Shown here one piece after another: positions 50,953 through 63,766 of a stretch of DNA of 64,000 nt. How positions within the stretch are numbered: position 1 is the first letter of the stretch; every line of letters starts with the position of its first letter. The DNA comes from Sulfobacillus thermosulfidooxidans DSM 9293 (lineage in GTDB: Bacteria > Bacillota > Sulfobacillia > Sulfobacillales > Sulfobacillaceae): assembly GCF_900176145.1 (NCBI RefSeq), contig NZ_FWWY01000001.1:1349819-1413818 (forward strand), written 5' to 3'. A program made the position numbers and the translations under genes. The notes under the pieces are model-generated. The model saw nothing but the letters and a program-made list of their open reading frames with translations. It ran no database searches and was not told the origin of the DNA.

Positions 50953-51613
50953 ATTTGGACGAAACAAGGAGCCATTTTTGATGGGGAATTGTGACAAAAC
51001 GAAAGTGAGGTGAATGGTTGTGCTAGGGACAGAACGACCCGTATCATCAACGAATCGACTAACCAGAAATTCTTTGAGCACAGGCGATATTTTAGGGGTA
51101 TCTTTAGCGAATACCGCTCCAGCCATGAGTTTCTTCTTCTCCTTTGCAGTTATCGCCGCGGCTGCTGGTCTTGCCAGTCCTCTCGCCATTGTTGTGGCTG
51201 CCATCGCTGTCTTGCTCAAAATTAATAGTTTGGTTGAGTTTACCCGGGTAACACCCAGCACGGGATCGTACATTTCGTATATCGGGAAAACGTTTGGTGC
51301 AGTGCCTGGGGTGATGACCGCATGGGCACTAGGCTTTGGATATATCGTGGCTGTCGGCTATGTGATGACGGTTATGGGCGCGTGGTCCTCGCTCATGCTG
51401 GCTAAATTTATTCATCTTCAGGTGCCTTGGCAACCGATAACCGTGCTGTTTGTCCTTTTCGTCACATATCTCGTCTACCGGGGTGTCAGGATTTCTACCA
51501 AATGGGCTGTTATCACGTTTGGTTTTGAACTGCTTCTGATTCTCGTCAGTATGATTGCGATGATTGTGACTAGTAGAGCCCATCTCAACTTGGCGAGTTT
51601 AAATCCTCACAAT

Positions 51614-51765
51614 AGTGAACTGCTCCCGCCTTCACTTCGCTTAGAGGCGGAGAGCTTCTTGCTTCATCGGCCATCGCCTGCTATAGCAGGTCTTACATGA
51701 TCTCCACAAGCGTGACTTCGGCCCATTCCATGCCTAGTTGAGCAGACACGTTAGCTCGCTTGATG
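51614..51765 (-). ncRNA. Predicted omega-RNA (reRNA) of TnpB
   Basis: In IS605 elements the guide RNA of TnpB spans the end of tnpB and the downstream terminus, with its guide taken from the flanking DNA. Here that places the scaffold over about 51765-51614, including the terminal hairpin, and the guide immediately beyond, complementary to permease sequence near 51598-51613. The position is inferred from element architecture; no direct transcript evidence exists. Confidence 0.4.
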
Positions 51766-52836
51766 TCGGATTTCTAGCCCTCGATGGAGAATGTTGATCG
51801 CGGCGTTGACGTCACGATCAATTTCTAACCCACACGTCGGGCATTGATGGAGACGCACAGACAAGTTTTTCTTGACGATGGTTCCACACCCGCCACTGCA
51901 ACGTTGTGACGTATAATGCGGGGGCACTGTGATCAGGTGCTTTCCAGCGTTTTTCGCTTTGTATTCCAGGTAGGTAGCGAGTTTACCCCAGCTAGCATTC
52001 GCAATGGATTTTGCCAGTCGATCATTTTTCATCATCCCTGTCACGGGCAAATCCTCCATGCAGATGAGATCGTAACGGTCTACCAATGATCGGCTGATCT
52101 TGTGCAGATGGTCCTTGCGCTGGTTCGCCACATGATCGTGTAGACATTGTAATTTTTGTTTCGCTTTCTCGCGGTTCTTGCTCCCTTTCTTTTTGCGAGA
52201 AAGCTGCCGTTGCTTGCGCTTCAAGCGCCCTTCACTCTTCTGTAGCCACTGCGGATTTTCGAAGAATTCTCCTTCTGAGGTGGCAATCAGCGAAAGGACC
52301 CCCAGATCAATGCCCACCGCGTTTTGAATCTCTGTACGTGACACCACGGCTTCTGTCCCATAGGTCAGGTTTACGTCCCATCTGCCATCATGGAACTTGA
52401 CATTGATTATTTTGACGGACGCCGCATCGAAGGGCTGATGGGCCATCATTCTAACCCATCCAATTTTCGGCAGATACACCTGGTTTTCATGAAAATAACG
52501 GGCTCTGGCTTGGGGGTAGGTGATCGAACGAAACATGAATTTGTTTTTGAATTTCGGGAACCGTGCCCGTTTCTCAAAGAAGTTCACAAAAGCCTGATCC
52601 AACCGTTGCAAGACGTTTTGCAGCACTTGCGAATGGACTTCCTTGTACTCGGGATGTTCCTGTTTCCATGTGGGGAGTTGGTTTTGTTGATCGGTGTAGC
52701 GAATGGAGATGCCCTTTTCTCGGTAATAGGTGATGCGTTCCTCCAGCGCCTGGTTGTAGAGTTTTCGACACAAATAGAAGGTGTAAAAGAGCTTTTGTTC
52801 CTGTTCTTTGGTGGGTTTTAAGCGAAAGCGCAACAC
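51751..52836 (-). CDS. tnpB: TnpB, RNA-guided nuclease of IS605 element
   Basis: The protein is about 361 aa if read from the GTG at 52836, the first start before the conserved LRFRLKPTKEQ; AAGGAG lies upstream at a long spacing. The RuvC-like catalytic residues are present: D in AVGIDLGVLSL (about 175), E in LICMEDLPV (about 258) and D in DRDVNAAINIL (about 335). The four-cysteine zinc ribbon (CSGGCG...CPTCG) lies between the last two. The frame is intact, so the protein may be active. TnpB family proteins cut DNA guided by an omega-RNA and help keep the element. Confidence 0.9.
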   Translation of the reverse strand: MLRFRLKPTKEQEQKLFYTFYLCRKLYNQALEERITYYREKGISIRYTDQQNQLPTWKQEHPEYKEVHSQVLQNVLQRLDQAFVNFFEKRARFPKFKNKFMFRSITYPQARARYFHENQVYLPKIGWVRMMAHQPFDAASVKIINVKFHDGRWDVNLTYGTEAVVSRTEIQNAVGIDLGVLSLIATSEGEFFENPQWLQKSEGRLKRKQRQLSRKKKGSKNREKAKQKLQCLHDHVANQRKDHLHKISRSLVDRYDLICMEDLPVTGMMKNDRLAKSIANASWGKLATYLEYKAKNAGKHLITVPPHYTSQRCSGGCGTIVKKNLSVRLHQCPTCGLEIDRDVNAAINILHRGLEIRHQAS

Positions 52837-52846
52837 GCCAACGATT

Positions 52847-53242
52847 TCATTCTCCTTGGTTTTCGATGTACGTTTTAATGGTCTCAATCGAGGCTCCTCC
52901 TGTCGTGAGCAAGCAGAAACTGCGTGACCAGAAATACTCTTTCCAAAGCGATTGTCGTATGAGCGGAAATTCTTTTTTGATGAGCCTTGACGATGCGCTT
53001 TTGTATGCGTTGATAAACCGAGAGAGTGCGGAATTGGGATGCGCCTTGAACAAAATATGGACATGATCGCCATCAGGGTTCCATTCCTGAAGGGTGATGT
53101 GGTACTTTGGCTGGATGGACTCAAAAATCTCGCGCAAACGGGCGGAAATGACATCATCTATCACCTTGCGTCGGTACTTGATCACCAGAATCAGGTGATA
53201 GTGCATCAAGAACACTGAATGATTATTGCCATCAAGTTCCAT
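52847..53242 (-). CDS. tnpA: TnpA, Y1 HUH transposase
   Basis: The protein has 131 aa. The ATG at 53242 gives the normal family N-terminus, with GAAGG upstream; the frame stays open further but without similarity. HVHILF is the HUH metal-binding motif. 'TIKTYIENQGE' at the C-terminus holds the catalytic tyrosine. 'YHLILVIKYRRKV' is the conserved first strand. All key residues are present, so the element could still be mobile. It lies 10 bp upstream of the tnpB start on the same strand. Confidence 0.9.
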   Translation of the reverse strand: MELDGNNHSVFLMHYHLILVIKYRRKVIDDVISARLREIFESIQPKYHITLQEWNPDGDHVHILFKAHPNSALSRFINAYKSASSRLIKKEFPLIRQSLWKEYFWSRSFCLLTTGGASIETIKTYIENQGE

Positions 53243-54319
53243 TGACAAATAACCTTCTTTGCTATTACTACTGATAGGATAACACGAGAAGGAAAAACAC
53301 GCCATTCATCTCGCCGCCTAAGAGGCGGGAGACTTCTGGCGCAAGATCGTTAAACATGGGCTACAAGGCATCGGCATGGCTTTTCCCCTGGCTTTATTTA
53401 TGTTTATTGGGGTGGGAAATCCGGGTGCCATGGTCGAAGAAACACGTAATGCCAGGCAGACCGTTCCTATCGCCATTTATGCGGCGACCATCTTTGTGAG
53501 TATTTTGTATGTCATGATGGCATGGTCAACGTCTATCGCATTTCATGATCATGCCGGGATTATTGCCCATTTAGCGGTTCCCTTTGTCACGGGAGCGAGT
53601 AAGTCTTTGGGACCCTTGGCAATTTTAGTGTATCTTGCCGGGTTAACCAGCACGTTTGCGTCGTTAATTGGTGCTACCAATGCCCAAATTCGGATGATAT
53701 TTAGTGCCGGACGGGAAGGTTTATTACCCTATGGCTTAGGCAAAGTGAGCCGTTATGGCACTCCTTGGGTAGCGTTACTGCTCTATAGTGGCCTTGCCTT
53801 AATGATTACCCTGATTTGGGGCAGTCAAGGGTCTGCTCTTACGGAAGCCGGGGTTATCGGCACATTAGGAACCATTCCCATTGCCCTCGTTTATCTGGTG
53901 CTGAATCTTGCTTTACCAGTTTATTACCTGACTCATCACCGAGATTTGTTTTCGTGGTGGAAGCATTTAGTGGTGCCGGTTTTAGGAACTTTAGCTCTGT
54001 TGTTACCCTTATGGGGACTTATTCAACCAGGACAACCCGCCCCGTTTAATCTTTTTCCCGGCATTGTGCTAGCGGTTTTAGTTGTTGGGGCCATTTACGC
54101 GGTAATCCGGCGGCGACAAATACCGGACCTGTCAAAACGGGTTGGTAGTATTATTGCGGATGAATGATGGTCTCGATGAGCATTCCAATATGAGAATTCT
54201 TTGGTGAAAGCGATCACGGGAACGGTAGAAGCCCATTATGGCGGGCACCTAATGGTCATAATATTTGTTTCATATCCCTATAGGCCGAACACTGTTATTT
54301 AGTTAAAATGCTACTAATA

Positions 54320-55261: not shown

Positions 55262-56374
55262 ATGAGCTGGATGGACGGGGTCCCCTTATGGGATCACCAT
55301 TGTCACGCCTTAATTGGCCCGAGTTTGGCTGGGGATATGGAGGTTTTTGCTTATGCGCTCACAGAGGCCCCACGTTCTTATCCCCTGAGCGATATTCAAG
55401 AGACGGTGACCTATTGGCAAGCCTTAGCCGTTGCGGCCAAGGAACTCGGTTGTGAGATTGACGATCAGGGGGTAGCAGAAGCCTTGCGGCAAAGGGATTT
55501 TGGAGCCTATTCCCGTTCTTTATTTCAACAAGCGGGATACAAGCGCCTGTTGATTGATACCGGCTTTACCCCCCAAGGAGGCTGGGCCTTACCCGAGTTA
55601 GAAACCGTTTTGGGAGTGCCGATTCTAAAGATTTTACGGTTAGAAACCACGGCCCAAGAGCTTTTGTATCAATTTGCCGATGTGAGAGACTGGATTTTAG
55701 CGGTGAAGGACCGTGTCAAAAATGCTCGCAGCCAGGGTTATGTGGGGATGAAATCGATTGTGGCCTACCGCTCCGGATTAGAAGTTTATCCGGTGAAGAC
55801 AATCGATGCGCAGGCGGCGTTTGCCGAGATGCAAAAGCAAGGCCAAACCCGCTTGACGGATCCTAGACTTTTGAACTACCTCTTGTGGGAAGTGACCCCG
55901 GTTTTCATCTCCGAAGCGTTACCCCTTCAGTTTCATACGGGCCATGGCGATCCCGATACCAACCTGTATAAGGGAAATCCTTTATTACTGCGGGAGTTTC
56001 TTGAGACTTTTATTCCCCAAGGACTTCAGGTGACACTGCTTCATACCTACCCATATCACCGGGAAGCGGGGTATTTGGCGTCTGTTTATCCTCGTGTCTA
56101 TTTTGATGTATCTTTAGCCCTGCCATTGGCAGCAAGCGGGGCTAAGCGCATTGTGGCCGAAGCCTTGGAATTGGCTCCGGCCAGTCGTCTGTTATTTGCT
56201 TCCGATTCCCACACCCGTCCGGAAAGTTTCTATTTAGCGGCAACCCTATGGAAACAAGGCTTAGAAGCCTATTGCGATCATATCACCCAAGACCATTATA
56301 TTTTGCCGCAGGTGGCCGAACGCTGGGTGAATCTGATTGCTTGGGAAAATTGTCGCCGCGTTTATCAACTTTAA
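55262..56374 (+). CDS. Amidohydrolase_2-family TIM-barrel protein (FluG N-half-like)
   Basis: The protein has 370 aa, with ATG after AAGGAGGAATT. 'LWDHHCHALIG' (residues 9-19) is the H-x-H metal motif. 'PLQFHTGHGDPD' (about 220), 'LLHTYPYHREAGYLA' (about 260) and 'LLFASDSHTRPES' (about 315) supply the later His/Asp ligands, so the barrel looks active. In fungal and plant FluG-type proteins this domain is fused to a glutamine-synthetase-like domain; here a GS-like gene lies directly next to it and is convergent, overlapping by 4 bp. The likely role is hydrolysis or decarboxylation in amine metabolism; the substrate is unknown. Confidence 0.8.
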   Translation: MSWMDGVPLWDHHCHALIGPSLAGDMEVFAYALTEAPRSYPLSDIQETVTYWQALAVAAKELGCEIDDQGVAEALRQRDFGAYSRSLFQQAGYKRLLIDTGFTPQGGWALPELETVLGVPILKILRLETTAQELLYQFADVRDWILAVKDRVKNARSQGYVGMKSIVAYRSGLEVYPVKTIDAQAAFAEMQKQGQTRLTDPRLLNYLLWEVTPVFISEALPLQFHTGHGDPDTNLYKGNPLLLREFLETFIPQGLQVTLLHTYPYHREAGYLASVYPRVYFDVSLALPLAASGAKRIVAEALELAPASRLLFASDSHTRPESFYLAATLWKQGLEAYCDHITQDHYILPQVAERWVNLIAWENCRRVYQL

Positions 56375-57705
56375 TACCGAAATCTGTGCCATGCTGCAAT
56401 CTCTTCGGGCGACTTGTTCTGGTAGAACGCAACTTCAGAGCGTTTGACGGCTAAATAGCTTTGCACCAGCATCTCGCCCATGGCCTCTTGCAATACGGCA
56501 TCTTGCGCCAAGTGATCCAGCGCTTGATCTAAGGATCCCGGTAAGCGGATAATGCCTCGCGCTTCCCTTTCGGAAGCGGGAATATCATCAGGATTACTGA
56601 GCACAGGTTCTTTAGGATCAAGCTTGTGAGCTATGCCATCAAGCCCGGCGGCGATAAGCGCGCCTAAGGCTAAGTAGGGGTTACTCGTTAAGTCTGCGGG
56701 CTTAAACTCCACATTCACACTTTGTTGTTCTTGCGTTTTGATCGGAGACGCGATGCGTAAGGGCGCTTCCCGGTTATCCGGTCCCCAACAGGCGTAGCTG
56801 GAACTCCAGGCATTGGGGACCAAACGCTGGTATGAATTAACAGTCGGTGTCGTGAGGGCCAGTAAAGCGGGAAGATGAAAGAGGATGCCGGCCATGAACT
56901 GGTAACCCATTATGCTTAAGCGGTAGGGATCACGCGGATCATAAAACAGGTTGTTCCCTTCATCATCCCGTGCGCTGAAGTGGATGTGCCCTCCGTTTCC
57001 CGCCTGATCGAGCCAGGGCTTAGGGGCAAAGGACACCTGAAGTCCGTGACGTTTGGCTACGGCGCGGATGGTTTCTCTGATATACAGTTGTTGACTGGCG
57101 GCCTCCATAACGGGGCGGTGGCGGACGGAGATTTCGTGTTGACCATGGGCCAGCTCCGGATAATATTGCTCCAAAATGATGCCTTGTTGTTCGAGGCTCT
57201 TTGCGAGATCATCAATAAAGTCTTGAGAGATTAGCATTCCTTGTGACGAAAAACATAAGGTCTCATCCCACGGCTTGTCGTCTTGAACGAGGCTAAACTC
57301 ATTTTCGATACTGGCCTGAATGGTGATTCCCATCGCCTTGGCTTTTTGATCCATACGCGCAAGAAAACTGCGGGGGCAGGCGTCCCAGGGATGACCATCA
57401 AGCGTTGTCATGACGGTTAAGACCGCAGCGGTGTTAGGGGCATAGGGAAGGACCTGAAAGGTCGATAAATCGGGAACGAGCCGCACTTCCCCGACGGGAC
57501 CCATGCCGTCCACTGCCTGTAATTGATCCAGGCTGTTCATGGCTTGCATGGCAACGGTGAGCCCAATGCCGCTTGATAGTCTGGCTGGGAGCGTGGGGGC
57601 ATAAGCCGATTTGCCGCGAATAATGCCGCCATTATCACAATATAAGAAACGGACAAACCGAATATCTTGCTCTTGAACTTTCTGCAGCACGTCTTCGAGT
57701 TCCAT
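56371..57705 (-). CDS. Glutamine-synthetase-like ligase (GlnA/gamma-glutamyl-amine type)
   Basis: The protein has 444 aa, with ATG after GAAGGAGTG. It has the beta-grasp start (FVRFLYCDNGGIIRGKSAYAP), then the catalytic barrel: 'SIENEFSLV' (metal Glu), 'GQHEISVRH' (Glu), 'GNGGHIHFSAR' (metal His), 'NSYQRLVPNAWSSSYACWGPDNREAPLRI' (ATP/glutamate Arg) and 'VEFKPADLTSNPYLALGALI'. The tyrosine adenylylation loop of GlnA is absent. The glutamate-binding segment departs from canonical GlnA, as in gamma-glutamylpolyamine or gamma-glutamyl-anilide synthetases. It is divergent from a second GS-like gene across a 270-bp gap. It most likely ligates glutamate to an amine. Confidence 0.85.
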   Translation of the reverse strand: MELEDVLQKVQEQDIRFVRFLYCDNGGIIRGKSAYAPTLPARLSSGIGLTVAMQAMNSLDQLQAVDGMGPVGEVRLVPDLSTFQVLPYAPNTAAVLTVMTTLDGHPWDACPRSFLARMDQKAKAMGITIQASIENEFSLVQDDKPWDETLCFSSQGMLISQDFIDDLAKSLEQQGIILEQYYPELAHGQHEISVRHRPVMEAASQQLYIRETIRAVAKRHGLQVSFAPKPWLDQAGNGGHIHFSARDDEGNNLFYDPRDPYRLSIMGYQFMAGILFHLPALLALTTPTVNSYQRLVPNAWSSSYACWGPDNREAPLRIASPIKTQEQQSVNVEFKPADLTSNPYLALGALIAAGLDGIAHKLDPKEPVLSNPDDIPASEREARGIIRLPGSLDQALDHLAQDAVLQEAMGEMLVQSYLAVKRSEVAFYQNKSPEEIAAWHRFRY

Positions 57706-57975: not shown

Positions 57976-59313
57976 GTGACATATGAAGACATTAACCAGT
58001 TGATTGCGGACAACGATATCGAAGTGATTCGGGTCGTGTTTAATGACATCACCAATGTTTCACGGGCACGCAACATTCCGGTGAAACATTTTCAGGACAC
58101 CGTCATGCAAAAAGGCGTGCAATATCCTTCGGCCATGTTATCGGTCGACACATCCGCCAACTTTGTCTTAGCGGCAGGAGCAGGATTCGCTGGCGGATAT
58201 GGTAGCTGGCTCTTAAAAATCGATCCGGAAACCTTTCGCATTATCCCGTGGGCGAAAAAAAGCGCGCGGGTCATTGCTGATCTCTACACCCTGGAAGAAG
58301 TGCCCGTTCCGGTGGCACCACGATCGGTCTTTCAGCGCGTCCTTCAGGAATTAGATAAAGAAGGGTTAGCGGCCTATGGCGCCGCTGAACTCGAATTTTA
58401 CATTTTCAAGCAATATGACGAACATGGTTTTGATCCGACGTGGACAGGCCTTCAGTGCTACTCCGAAATCAAACAGGGAGAAATTGACGAAATCCTGTAT
58501 CAAATCGTCAGCGGCCTAGCTGCTGTGGATATTCACGTCGAGGCTGCTAATACGGAATACGGTCCGGGACAATTCGAAGTGTCAATTAATCCGGCATGGG
58601 GTATTGCCCAAGCGGATGTGGCCTTTACCCTTAAGACGGCGATTAAAGAAATGATGGCGCAACAAGGACTCTTGGCGACCTTTATGACCAAGCCGTTAAC
58701 GGGGTTAAGTGGCAGCGGCAGTCACTTCCATCATTCGCTTTATCACAAAGCCACAGGCCAAAATGCCTTGTTTGACCCAGAAGATGCTTACGGACTGAGC
58801 GATTTGGCGAAACATTTTATCGCTGGGCAATTGCATCATGCCAAGGCTATTTCTGCTTTGGCTAATCCGACGATTAATTCCTATCACCGCTTGCGTCCTT
58901 ATACATTCGCGCCCAGTAATGTGACGTGGGGATTAGAAAACCGGATGTGTATGATTCGCATTCCTGGTGCCAGGGGACAAGGGACGCACATCGAGAACCG
59001 GTTACCGGGAGCGGACAATAATCCCTATTTGATGATGGCTGCCATATATGCGGCGGGATTAGACGGCATAAGACGGCAATTACCTGTACCTCCACCAGTG
59101 GAGAATGAAGATGCCTACGCCAAAGCGGATGCATCGTCCCTTCCGAAGAGTCTTGGCGAAGCTCTTGAGGCCTTAAATCAGGATGAGGTGTTGGTTAATC
59201 TGTTAGGCCCTGAATTTGTCCAAGCCTTTACGGCACTAAAAACTCATGAAATCAACCGCTTTACCGATCATGTGTCCGACTGGGAAGTCAAAGAATACCG
59301 TGAACTCTTTTAG
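57976..59313 (+). CDS. Glutamine-synthetase-like ligase, second paralogue
   Basis: The protein has 445 aa, with GTG 57976 after CAGGAGGCATG. It carries the same GS core as its divergent neighbour: 'VIRVVFNDITNVSRARNIPV' beta-grasp, 'GAAELEFYIF' (Glu), 'YGPGQFEVSINP' (Glu), 'GSGSHFHHSLY' (His), 'NSYHRLRPYTFAPSNVTWGLENRMCMIRI' and 'IENRLPGADNNPYLMMAAI'. The sequence is only moderately similar to the 56371 protein, so the two probably differ in substrate. It begins an operon with the AhpD-like gene (12 bp) and an APC permease gene, consistent with gamma-glutamylation of an imported amine. Confidence 0.85.
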   Translation: MTYEDINQLIADNDIEVIRVVFNDITNVSRARNIPVKHFQDTVMQKGVQYPSAMLSVDTSANFVLAAGAGFAGGYGSWLLKIDPETFRIIPWAKKSARVIADLYTLEEVPVPVAPRSVFQRVLQELDKEGLAAYGAAELEFYIFKQYDEHGFDPTWTGLQCYSEIKQGEIDEILYQIVSGLAAVDIHVEAANTEYGPGQFEVSINPAWGIAQADVAFTLKTAIKEMMAQQGLLATFMTKPLTGLSGSGSHFHHSLYHKATGQNALFDPEDAYGLSDLAKHFIAGQLHHAKAISALANPTINSYHRLRPYTFAPSNVTWGLENRMCMIRIPGARGQGTHIENRLPGADNNPYLMMAAIYAAGLDGIRRQLPVPPPVENEDAYAKADASSLPKSLGEALEALNQDEVLVNLLGPEFVQAFTALKTHEINRFTDHVSDWEVKEYRELF

Positions 59314-59325
59314 GAGGAGAGACGA

Positions 59326-59745
59326 ATGAGTTTAGTCGAAGGTGTCGCTGAAGATCAGGCAGTCGGGATGGTTAAAGAGATTTATGAGGAAATGAAGCGG
59401 GTTCGGGGATGGGACCGCATTCCTGCCATTTGGCGAGTGATGGCCCTAAAACCCGAATACCTTAAGGTCAACTGGCAGCGCTACCAGAAAATCATGATGC
59501 AAGGCCAGATCGACGCCAAGACCAAGGAAATGTTGGCTTTGGCGGTCAGCATGGTGAATGGGTGCAGCTACTGAATTGACAGCCATTCTTTCGCGTTGCG
59601 AAAGATGGGAATGACTGATGAGGAATTGGTTGAACTGGTTTCTGTCATTGACTTCTTTGCGGGGACGAATGCCATGTCGACGGCTTTAAAGATTGCCTTT
59701 GAATGGCCATCACTCTCATCACCTTCAGAGGATCCAGCCCGTTGA
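59326..59745 (+). CDS. AhpD/CMD-like protein, candidate selenoprotein (CxxU)
   Basis: It has 139 codons with an in-frame TGA at codon 83 (59572-59574); ATG 59326 follows TAGGAGGAGAGACG. AhpD/carboxymuconolactone-decarboxylase-like proteins of this size use a C-x-x-C-x-x-x-H centre for peroxide or thiol redox chemistry. Here 'EMLALAVSMVNGCSY-TGA-IDSH' places TGA exactly at the second Cys. Downstream the frame is intact and family-like (ALRKMGMTDEELVELVSVIDFFAGTNAMSTALKIAF) to a normal stop at 59745. A bulged hairpin starts 8 nt after the TGA. AhpD-like selenoproteins with CxxU-type centres are known from other bacteria. The alternative is a simple nonsense mutation (TGC/TGT to TGA). Selenocysteine machinery is not visible in this window. 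Confidence 0.65.
59583..59608 (+). promoter_or_regulatory. Candidate bacterial SECIS hairpin
   Basis: Eleven base pairs, CCAT and CTTTCGC with GCGAAAG and ATGG, form one stem with a single bulged U (59587) and a GUU apical loop (59595-59597). The loop lies 20 nt after the TGA, inside the 16-37 nt window of bacterial SECIS elements. A bulged U in the upper stem plus a G-U in the loop is what SelB recognises in the E. coli fdhF element. Confidence 0.6.
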
Positions 59746-59836
59746 TTTGGACACGTGGTTATTTGGTCCGCACAAAATTGTGGCGGCTTTAATCAAGATT
59801 CTTGAATAATGATGCAAGAGAGGAGCCTTACCCACC

Positions 59837-61453
59837 GTGAAGTCTGATTTGGATTATGCCAATCAAGCTGCTGATTCTAAACAAAGCGGGTATAAAAAAG
59901 AACTAGGGTTTTGGACAGTCGTGTTTTTAGCCACGGGAGGCATATTGGGACCTGCTGTCGGGTTCACTCCCGTGTCTGTGCTGGCTTTGGCGGGTCCATC
60001 GGGCATCTTATCATGGATTATTGCCTTTCTATTAATCATGGCAGTTGCCATGGCTTACGTGGAACTGGGAACCATGTGGCCCAAAGCAGGAGGAGTGGCC
60101 TATTACCCCGCAAAAAGTAGTGGGCCCATTGTTGGGGTGATGAATGCATGGGGTTCCTTTGTCGGCTATGCCTTAGCGGTGCCGTCGATTGTCGTGGCCT
60201 TCGTGGAATACTTGAGTTACTGGTTTCCTGGTTTATATAAAGGCGGGACCTTAACCACTACAGGTATCGTTTCCGCAATTGCTGTGACCGTCGTTATTTT
60301 TTGGATTAATACTTTGCGTATCCGGTATATGGGCCAATTGAATAACATTTTTACGGTATTAACCATTGTCGGTCTTGTTGTGGTCAGTGTGGTGCTGTTA
60401 ACTCATATGCATCCAAGTAACTTTCACCAATTTCACGGGTTTGTTCCTTTTGGGACTTCGGGTTTATTTCTTGCCATCTCGGCTACGATTTATGGATATG
60501 GCGGATTTCGGCAGCCGATCGATTATGCCGAAGAAGTGAAAGACCCGGGAAAAACCATTCCTAAAGCGGTCTTTCTGACCATGATCATTACGCTAATAAT
60601 CTATTTTCTCGAAAGCCTTTCTTATCTTGGCGCCATCAACTGGAAAGGCATTGGTGTTCAAGCGGGAAATTGGTCGGGATTGTCTAGCTTGGCCTATCCC
60701 TTTGTTTCTATTGGTCATGGTATCGGTCTACCAATTATCGGGCTCATAGCCATGATTACCATGCTCATTGCTTCGTTCAAAGATGGTTATATCTATTTTG
60801 GGGGCGCGAGCCGGGTGGGATATTCGCTGAGTTACTATGACGGGTATTTACCCAAGGTCTTTACAAACATGACCAAAAATGGGATTCCGTTGCCATCCGT
60901 CCTATTAGTGTTGGTGGTGTCGTCGTTATACATCATCTTATTGCCATCTTTCTCTTCTCTTTTTCCCTTAGTGGCGAGTGCCTTATTGTTGTCATATGCC
61001 CCGGGCCCTTTGAGCTTGGCGATTTTTCGCACAAAATATCCTCATGAACCAAGACCTTATGTATTGCCAGCGTATAAGATCCTCGCACCTTTTGCTTTTG
61101 TGATCAGTACGCTGATGATTTATTGGTCAGGGTGGGCCTCGGTGCACATTTTGATTCCGTCTGTGTTTATTGGCTTATTGCTCCTGTTCTTTTATCGCAA
61201 ACATAGCCGCATTACTCAAGATGACTGGCGAAGGGGTTTATGGCTTCCTATTTTTCAGATTATCTTGATGGGACTATCTTATATCGGAAGCAAGAATTTT
61301 GGCGGTCACAACCTCATTCCTTCACCATGGGACACGGTAGTGGTAGGGATTGTTGCGTTAGTATTTTATTACTGGGGATTATCGTCAGGATTAAAATGGC
61401 AAGAACATGATACATTTACTGAGTCTCCCTCAGCTGGGGCAGTAACTCGGTAA
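59837..61453 (+). CDS. APC-superfamily amino-acid/amine permease
   Basis: The protein has 538 aa, with GTG 59837 after AGGAGCCTTACCCACC. About 12-14 hydrophobic helices are visible. 'FLATGGILGPAVGFTPVSVLALAGPSGI' is the first broken helix with the substrate-backbone-binding glycines. 'VAMAYVELGTMWPKAGGVAYY' matches the APC consensus loop (YAEL...P.aGG.Y.Y). 'GGFRQPIDYAEEVKDPGKTIPKAV' is the conserved helix-6 region. It follows the GS-like and AhpD-like genes and is probably the importer for the amine they use. Confidence 0.9.
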   Translation: MKSDLDYANQAADSKQSGYKKELGFWTVVFLATGGILGPAVGFTPVSVLALAGPSGILSWIIAFLLIMAVAMAYVELGTMWPKAGGVAYYPAKSSGPIVGVMNAWGSFVGYALAVPSIVVAFVEYLSYWFPGLYKGGTLTTTGIVSAIAVTVVIFWINTLRIRYMGQLNNIFTVLTIVGLVVVSVVLLTHMHPSNFHQFHGFVPFGTSGLFLAISATIYGYGGFRQPIDYAEEVKDPGKTIPKAVFLTMIITLIIYFLESLSYLGAINWKGIGVQAGNWSGLSSLAYPFVSIGHGIGLPIIGLIAMITMLIASFKDGYIYFGGASRVGYSLSYYDGYLPKVFTNMTKNGIPLPSVLLVLVVSSLYIILLPSFSSLFPLVASALLLSYAPGPLSLAIFRTKYPHEPRPYVLPAYKILAPFAFVISTLMIYWSGWASVHILIPSVFIGLLLLFFYRKHSRITQDDWRRGLWLPIFQIILMGLSYIGSKNFGGHNLIPSPWDTVVVGIVALVFYYWGLSSGLKWQEHDTFTESPSAGAVTR

Positions 61454-61662: not shown

Positions 61663-62346
61663 TTATGAGATTTCAATGGCCTGAGCGTAGGCGAGTTGTT
61701 CGATGGATGTCGCTTGCGGGAAAATCACCTCGAAGACGTAATCGTCAAGACTATGTAAGCTCGTTGTCACTAGTTGCATAGAGCCAATGCGGAAAAGATA
61801 ACAGGGATTCTCGTCATTGCCAGCATAAACGGCTAATGTACCGTGTGATGATAATGCCATGAAATTCGCCCGTCCTTCTAAATGCTGATGCGTGTCGACC
61901 AGGGCTTCTGTGATGGTGCGCCCGCGTTTCAATTGTTCAAGCCAGTAATAATAGCCGACTTCACTGTCGGACGTTCCTTCCAACTGCTCGGCAAATTCGC
62001 TTCGGTAGGCCTTGTGGCGACTTAAGAATCCATTATGGGCAAATGCATAGGTTCTCAGAGGATCGCAATAGGGCTGGGCATTGCGGGGACTTTGTGTCGT
62101 CATGAGGCTTGGCCGTCTAAGGTGAATAAACGCACGACGGGTCCGCACGTCCCTTAAGGCATCATTCGCATAGGGATCCTTGCGTAAGCCATAAAGGGAG
62201 CGGTAACGGTGAAGGCCCGTTTCATCGATCCAGGCTAAGCCCCAGCCATAGCCAGCAACGCCCAGTTCCTCAAGATTCCTGGCCCACGCCAAGAGTTCTG
62301 ACATATTGACAAAATCGGGGGATGAAACGGCTAACATTTCACACAT
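61663..62346 (-). CDS. Class II glutamine amidotransferase-type protein
   Basis: The protein has 227 aa, with ATG after AGGAGGACCATC. Cys2 directly after Met (MCEMLAVSS) is the Ntn nucleophile exposed by Met removal. 'RAFIHLRRPS' and 'PYCDPLRTYAFAHNGFLSRH' (about 90-115) match the glutaminase pocket (the HNG motif), and 'GTSDSEVGYYYWL' follows. It is a stand-alone GATase_4-type domain, like the small subunits used with gamma-glutamylamide or N-methylglutamate enzymes. It is divergent from the IclR regulator gene and in the same island as two GS-like ligases, which suggests hydrolysis of a gamma-glutamylamide intermediate (inference). Confidence 0.85.
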   Translation of the reverse strand: MCEMLAVSSPDFVNMSELLAWARNLEELGVAGYGWGLAWIDETGLHRYRSLYGLRKDPYANDALRDVRTRRAFIHLRRPSLMTTQSPRNAQPYCDPLRTYAFAHNGFLSRHKAYRSEFAEQLEGTSDSEVGYYYWLEQLKRGRTITEALVDTHQHLEGRANFMALSSHGTLAVYAGNDENPCYLFRIGSMQLVTTSLHSLDDYVFEVIFPQATSIEQLAYAQAIEIS

Positions 62347-62562
62347 GATGGTCCTCCTATACGTTCAATTTTGACACAGTGAATTCGTTGAGTTTCTTCA
62401 GGTTTCCTGCCTGTTTGGGAATTTCAAAGAATTTTTGGCAATCTATCCAGGTCAAGAAGGAATTTTTGTTGAGATGACGAAGTTATTTTAAGAAATGGAA
62501 TATACTTTTCATTTTACCGAATTGGTCTTAAATTGTCAGGGGGAATGAAGAAGGGAGATGTC

Positions 62563-63318
62563 ATGGAACCTCAGCAAGAAGAATCTCACATACCATCACT
62601 CCGGGCCCTAGAACGAGGTCTTCAATTATTAGACTACCTCATCCGGGTGAAAGAAGCTCGCTTGCATAAAATTGCGGAAGAAACCTCTTTGCCACCATCA
62701 ACCACGCACCGCTTATTACAGGCTTTAGAACGCCATGGCTACGTGACAGGGACCCAGCATGGATTCTATAAGCTAGGGCTGAAAGGCTTTTGGTTAACGG
62801 GAGTGCGTGAAAGCCTTCGTCATGTCCTAGAAGATTTGCAGAAGAAAACCGGGGAAACCGTCAACCTGGCCATGCTCGTGCAAGATGAAATGGAGTATGT
62901 CGAGCGAGCGGTATCTGATCATGCCTTGTCTTTTGTGGTATCTGTCGGCCAGCGCGTTCCCCTAAATTGTAGCGCGCTGGGAAAGGCGGTCCTGGCTTAT
63001 CAGCCCGATCTTCTTGCCCATATAAGCCTAAAACAGAGAACTTCTCATTCCATTACGGATCTGGTTGAGCTCAAGGCCGAACTCGAAGTGGCCAGACACC
63101 GGGGCTTTACGCTTGATAACGAGGAATATTTTGATGGGGTGTTTTGTGTGGCTGTGCCGGTTTTTGATCAACGTGGGGAAGCCATTGGGGGTGTATCCAT
63201 TTCAGGTCCCACGGTGCGCTTTTCCCGTGAACAAGCCTTTCAATATGCGCCGCTGTTAAAAGCGGCGGGAGAACGGATTTCCCAATTACTGCAAACCCAT
63301 GAAGGAGGAGAAACGTAA
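62563..63318 (+). CDS. IclR-family transcriptional regulator
   Basis: The protein has 251 aa. ATG 62563 is chosen because AAGGGAGA ends 6 nt upstream. Residues about 10-70 are the IclR winged helix (SLRALERGLQLLDYLI...LHKIAEETSLPPSTTHRLLQALERHGYV). Residues about 85-245 are the effector domain, with 'VGQRVPLNCSALGKAVLAY' and 'GFTLDNEEYFDGVFCVAVPVF' typical of the ligand pocket. It is divergent from the amidotransferase gene (185-bp gap) and is followed directly by a cupin gene. It likely controls both directions. Confidence 0.9.
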   Translation: MEPQQEESHIPSLRALERGLQLLDYLIRVKEARLHKIAEETSLPPSTTHRLLQALERHGYVTGTQHGFYKLGLKGFWLTGVRESLRHVLEDLQKKTGETVNLAMLVQDEMEYVERAVSDHALSFVVSVGQRVPLNCSALGKAVLAYQPDLLAHISLKQRTSHSITDLVELKAELEVARHRGFTLDNEEYFDGVFCVAVPVFDQRGEAIGGVSISGPTVRFSREQAFQYAPLLKAAGERISQLLQTHEGGET

Positions 63319-63319
63319 C

Positions 63320-63766
63320 ATGGCCAATGACACGTCCCCACAAGAACAGGGATATTTTGTCCAACCAGAAAACCGTGTGGTCGAGGTTTCTGAAGATTTT
63401 CTGCCCCAATATATCAACATCGATCAATTACCGATTTCCTTAGTATCAGAGGGCGTTGGCCTTAAAGGGGTATTTGGGCACAATCTGATGTTGTCTTTTG
63501 TCTACATGAAGCCTCATTCGGTGGCGGCATTACATAGTCACCCAGAAGAGCAAATTGGGCTCGTGTTAGAGGGAGAATACGAATTTGAGTTAAATGGCGT
63601 GAGGAAATTGATTGGCAAAGGGGATGTGTACATCGTGCCTCCTGGGGTACCCCATGGCGCCAGGACTCATGATAAAGCGTGCCTGGCTTTAGATATCTTT
63701 GCACCGCCCCGCTCGGGATACCGAGAAATGCTTGAAGCCACGCATAAAGTGATGACCTTTGATTAA
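63320..63766 (+). CDS. Cupin-domain protein
   Basis: The protein has 148 aa, with ATG after GGAGGAGAAACGTAAC, one base after the IclR stop. Residues about 55-125 form a single cupin barrel: 'VAALHSHPEEQIGLVLEGEYEFELNG' gives the two His and Glu of motif 1, and 'GDVYIVPPGVPHGARTHDKA' is motif 2 with its His. A mononuclear metal site is therefore probable. Such small cupins act as isomerases or dioxygenases, or bind small molecules. It is part of the IclR-cupin-SDR operon. Confidence 0.85.
   Translation: MANDTSPQEQGYFVQPENRVVEVSEDFLPQYINIDQLPISLVSEGVGLKGVFGHNLMLSFVYMKPHSVAALHSHPEEQIGLVLEGEYEFELNGVRKLIGKGDVYIVPPGVPHGARTHDKACLALDIFAPPRSGYREMLEATHKVMTFD

Follow-up and report, generated by a model that had tools for sequence, protein, structure and literature searches.

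The window, a 64,000-nt stretch of the Sulfobacillus thermosulfidooxidans genome, carries an open reading frame for an AhpD-like protein that contains an in-frame TGA at codon 83. The frame starts with an ATG placed 12 nt after the end of a glutamine synthetase (GS)-like gene, ends at a terminating TGA at 59743-59745 and encodes 139 residues once codon 83 is decoded. A first-pass annotation of the window, made from sequence alone, had proposed a CxxU selenoprotein with its own hairpin, encoded in an amine-use operon between a GS-like ligase and a permease; these two genes indeed lie on either side of the frame. The features of the locus are collected in Table 1.

Table 1. Features at the AhpD-like locus (positions in the window)
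Feature	Position	Strand	Remarks and evidence
Amidohydro_2 enzyme of the conserved cluster	55262..56374	+	family match, synteny
Second GS-like gene	56371..57705	-	best NCBIfam match gamma-glutamylputrescine synthetase, below cut-off
GS-like (gamma-glutamyl-amine ligase-type) gene	57976..59313	+	directly upstream of the AhpD-like gene; syntenic in eight relatives
AhpD/CMD-like gene, predicted selenoprotein	59326..59745	+	139 aa, motif CSYU-IDSH; PF02627, PDB 2ouw alignment, orthologues
Predicted Sec codon, in-frame TGA, codon 83, second position of CxxU redox motif	59572..59574	+	alignments, orthologues
Weak lower stem of putative SECIS hairpin	extends to 59583-59609	+	folding
Core of putative SECIS hairpin	59587..59605	+	8-bp stem 59587-59594/59598-59605, GUU triloop 59595-59597; folding, synonymous constraint, covariation
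APC-type amino acid/amine permease	59837..61453	+	directly downstream of the AhpD-like gene
Class-II glutamine amidotransferase-like protein of the cluster	61663..62346	-	family match, synteny
IclR-family regulator of the cluster	62533..63318	+	family match, synteny
Cupin of the cluster	63299..63766	+	family match, synteny
SDR oxidoreductase	from 63815, beyond window edge		adjoins cupin

The PF02627 domain was matched across the TGA (residues 44-124, E=4.6e-21; 75 bits against a Pfam gathering cut-off of 23), in agreement with the earlier view that family-like sequence continues up to the stop at 59745. The AhpD core model TIGR00778 gave 64.9 bits. Scores with the peroxidase-related subfamily TIGR01926 (68.7 bits, curated cut-off 81.8) and with true AhpD, TIGR00777 (34.9 bits, curated cut-off 191.95), were under the respective cut-offs, and the protein therefore appears to belong to a separate subfamily, related to TIGR01926 yet outside it. 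The closest solved structure by sequence is PDB 2ouw (Alkylhydroperoxidase AhpD core, 138 aa, E=5.4e-23), which is collinear with the window protein over residues 8-125. In this alignment U83 of the readthrough motif C80-S-Y-U83-I-D-S-H87 stands opposite the second Cys of CSYCAHSH, so that 2ouw has CxxC where the window protein has CxxU. Homologues with Cys at the same residue place the TGA identically, as the first-pass annotation had done in assigning position 59572 to the second Cys of CxxCxxxH. An AlphaFold2 model built from the single sequence (pLDDT 45.9) was too poor for interpretation.

The catalytic residues of AhpD (Glu, CxxC(U) and His) are all present as E68, C80, U83 and H87, and in nine aligned homologues E68, C80, Y82, C/U83 and H87 form invariant columns. 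The AhpD relay consists of Glu118, Cys130, His132, Cys133 and His137, and PA0269 has Tyr in place of His132 (PMC3141380). Mycobacterium tuberculosis AhpD, PA0269 and the window protein thus share a relay of Glu, Cys-x-(His/Tyr)-Cys and His with the same spacing, the window protein differing by the predicted Sec for the second Cys. Since E68, C80, Y82, U83 and H87 are invariant and spaced as in AhpD, Sec is assigned to the second Cys position of the relay.

Homologues were found at E<=1e-10 in 12 of 154 genomes of the class. Seven family members, the window gene included (L024-L027 and L029-L031), carry TGA at codon 83, and the six orthologues among them (L025, L026, L027, L029, L030 and L031) keep it in the same operon; these seven genomes represent five genera. 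Remote homologues with TGA are L032, L033 and L034 of family f24 and L069 of another family of the phylum. Two homologues have TGC at this place: L028, from the same family as the window genome, and L067, 66% identical, from another family of the phylum. All TGA-bearing genomes of the class have selA, as does G119, the genome of L028. A genome-contig search for related loci returned only three short Oligosphaera matches. As a separate observation, L033 and L034 (around 1681) represent a second, longer AhpD-like CxxU protein of family f24, a putative selenoprotein encoded outside the operon, with the motifs CRYU-LNSH and CRYU-LGSH.

Past the TGA the mRNA can form a hairpin that begins 8 nt downstream, at 59583, and exposes its GUU triloop 20 nt from the codon. 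The bacterial SECIS model of PMC13188914 calls for a loop of 3-9 nt, an upper stem of 4-16 bp, a G within the first two loop positions and a distance of 16-37 nt from the UGA. The GUU loop, 8 bp and 20 nt of the AhpD-like hairpin agree with that model, which bears out the proposal that the element is of the SECIS type and lies at a SelB-compatible distance. The 11-bp stem with a bulged U and a GUU loop proposed at first is a possible drawing, yet RNAfold favours 8 bp followed by a 2x2 internal loop and a further 2 bp. As a conserved core the 11-bp stem was rejected: relatives share its upper stem and GUU loop but neither the lower stem nor the bulged U. An Rfam scan of 59300-59800 gave no match, which weighs little because bacterial SECIS elements are too diverse.

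Taken as a single sequence, the hairpin is only moderately unusual (MFE -13.7 kcal/mol, z -2.4 to -3.0). When the same peptide was recoded at random with synonymous codons, 0.8% of the sequences formed all eight pairs and 1.75% reached the observed MFE. Conservation and covariation tests were much stronger. In the seven TGA genes synonymous codon identity amounts to 85% of pairs over codons 88-96, compared with about 45% (range about 35-60%) elsewhere, and drops back immediately past the hairpin. In L033 and L034 the stem differs (CCGCCUU/AAGGCGG) in a compensated manner, the GUU loop and its 20-nt distance from the UGA being unchanged. When these two were included, 97.2% of cells were paired (43-57% in slid controls), both sides had changed in six of the eight stem pairs, and covariation was 0.542 (0.21 shuffled, <=0.16 slid controls), the independent compensatory events being few because most come from these two related distant sequences. 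The stem of L032 and L069 is GCCGC/GCGGC; its 6-nt loop (CGUGCA or CGUGAA) lies 20 nt from the UGA and has GU at its second and third positions, which is consistent with the SECIS model, although the L032 fold alone is not striking; folding z-scores are weak in L032 (-0.7) and L034 (-0.6).

Only the TGA forms have the hairpin. In L028, changes at TCA, CTG, CGG and CAG leave six of eight pairs and a GCU loop, and the fold is no better than that of shuffled sequence (z +0.22); in L067, two of eight pairs are formed. Decay of the gene in Cys-encoding relatives without the hairpin had been named as a sign against a selenoprotein; the genes of both Cys homologues are intact, and the TGA relatives keep codon and hairpin together. 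L028 (G119; Cys, hairpin absent) and L030 (G118; TGA with hairpin) form a matched pair from one genus and the same operon. The protein tree is compatible both with loss of Sec in L028 and with its earlier branching.

The genome that holds the window (3.86 Mb, 99.9% complete) encodes all four components that the first-pass annotation had suggested looking for. A tRNA-Sec with a TCA anticodon, SelB (357.6 bits, above cut-off) and SelA (556 bits) were found, and SelD contains an in-frame TGA (TSKSG-U-GCK) followed shortly by a hairpin (L017:1530-1575) with a perfect 8-bp stem and a GGA triloop (MFE -18.5, z -3.9). SelD of this genome is itself a selenoprotein. Other selenoproteins of the genome were sought by family searches only. 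A match to the formate dehydrogenase (FDH) alpha subunit contains one TGA, in line with the Sec-containing formate dehydrogenases reported for all Sulfobacillus genomes analysed in PMC4378227. Two FDH-alpha-like matches (L058 and L064, G000:C1:1926149-1930633) each have a TGA inside, one spanning model positions 51-672 and the other, downstream, positions 1-54.

Termination at codon 83 might itself be functional. Known systems show competition between Sec insertion and termination, and a truncated product is therefore likely made as well; codon 83 could accordingly be viewed as a regulated true stop, with an 82-residue N-terminal protein ending in CSY as the functional product and only rare read-through. 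However, residues 84-127, which include the relay His87, are as well conserved as the N-terminal part, and the hairpin fits the SECIS model and is lost in Cys forms, which makes a regulated stop very improbable. An accidental origin of the stop in what was once a CxxC AhpD gene, whether by nonsense mutation, pseudogene formation or sequencing error, would need only a single-base change from TGC to TGA, and TGC homologues do exist (L028 and L067). Yet the same TGA recurs across the five genera and in the remote homologues, purifying selection acts downstream of it (mean dN ~0.13, dS >1.6 where computable), the hairpin shows synonymous freeze and covariation, and the genome has the full Sec machinery. 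On these sequence comparisons an accident has a negligible probability and can be regarded as excluded, as was argued from the start on the grounds that a chance nonsense mutation would not be expected to coincide with such a hairpin. Decoding of the TGA as another amino acid by a suppressor or a near-cognate Trp or Cys tRNA, a kind of read-through that occurs in some bacteria, is hardly credible either, given Cys at the aligned residue of homologues, a dedicated tRNA-Sec (TCA) and SelB, and a hairpin that accompanies the TGA form only.

Reading of TGA codon 83 as selenocysteine in the AhpD-like gene is thus, judged from sequence, almost certain. With the machinery, the codon, the hairpin, their joint conservation and the operon read from the genomes, we infer the insertion of Sec and propose a redox chemistry and a pathway role as follows. 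SelB and tRNA-Sec would decode the UGA under the direction of the downstream hairpin, and Sec83 would stand in for the second Cys of an AhpD-type relay consisting of Glu68, Cys80, Tyr82, Sec83 and His87. Peroxide or a disulfide would most likely be reduced through a Cys80-Sec83 selenenylsulfide; the intact Glu-Cys-Tyr-Sec-His relay makes a peroxidase or thiol-disulfide role probable. The ahpC gene is not among the annotated neighbouring genes.

Family relatives have largely kept the cluster around the AhpD-like gene (two GS-like genes, amidohydrolase, amidotransferase-like protein, permease, IclR regulator, cupin and SDR). Family f24 has kept part of it, alongside a class-IV aminotransferase and a metallo-beta-lactamase-fold hydrolase. 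Both GS-like ligases resemble gamma-glutamylputrescine synthetase with scores under its cut-off. The operon likely encodes an amine or amino-compound pathway via gamma-glutamyl intermediates, which the AhpD-like protein may serve. L067 and L069 lie outside the cluster, and the AhpD-like protein family is therefore not confined to it. That the protein's role is specific to the pathway of the operon is a tentative suggestion. We would put forward with the same reserve the idea that AhpD-like selenoproteins of a distinct subfamily have a dedicated part, catalytic or protective, in gamma-glutamylation amine use; if so, these bacteria would need selenium for one route of amine catabolism. Literature searches found no paper on a gamma-glutamylamide/IclR/amidohydrolase operon and none joining a selenoprotein, CMD and glutamine synthetase.

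Descriptions of CxxU AhpD-like selenoproteins go back to 2005, and CxxU AhpD-like/CMD selenoproteins are an established group (PMC1088965, PMC2398784 and PMC13188914); PMC13188914 lists TIGR01926- and PF02627-type entries. The window protein shares with them the CMD/AhpD domain, Sec as the second residue of CxxU and a SECIS element right past the UGA. In the same sources the entries are largely metagenomic and their descriptions, as far as accessible, mention no GS-like/permease operon, whereas the window member is fixed in one such operon of a Sulfobacillus-like lineage. NF041238 (AhpD_rel_CFYUT) and NF041047 (GSU3128) have the AhpD core and Sec/Cys interchange in common with the window protein, which differs from them in length and falls well short of their cut-offs (34 of 175 and 26 of 110 bits). 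The selenoprotein reading of the first-pass annotation stands, but the novelty that it implied was overstated, since the CxxU AhpD-like family was already known. What is new is the window member, itself well supported, its Sulfobacillus-like lineage and the linkage to the GS-like-ligase/amidohydrolase/permease/IclR operon; no description of an AhpD-like selenoprotein in Sulfobacillus was found in the open-licence literature.

Genes of this kind are easily mis-annotated as truncated proteins, and a family known mainly from metagenomes gains a testable functional context in a conserved amine-use operon. The G118/G119 pair constitutes a natural experiment, as both genomes have SelA, and this matched Sec/Cys pair from close relatives offers a way to test why Sec is used.

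Two further features of the region were noted. In six relatives (L026-L031) the AhpD-like gene and the permease are separated by a Dabb (PF07876) gene, at the place of window positions 59746-59836; it is absent from the window genome and from its closest relative, G109. Within 51014-54167, an APC permease gene appears to be interrupted by an IS200/IS605-type element (TnpA-like ORF 52847-53305 and TnpB ORF 51751-53157, minus strand), which leaves an N-terminal half (51014-51700) and a C-terminal half (53376-54167).
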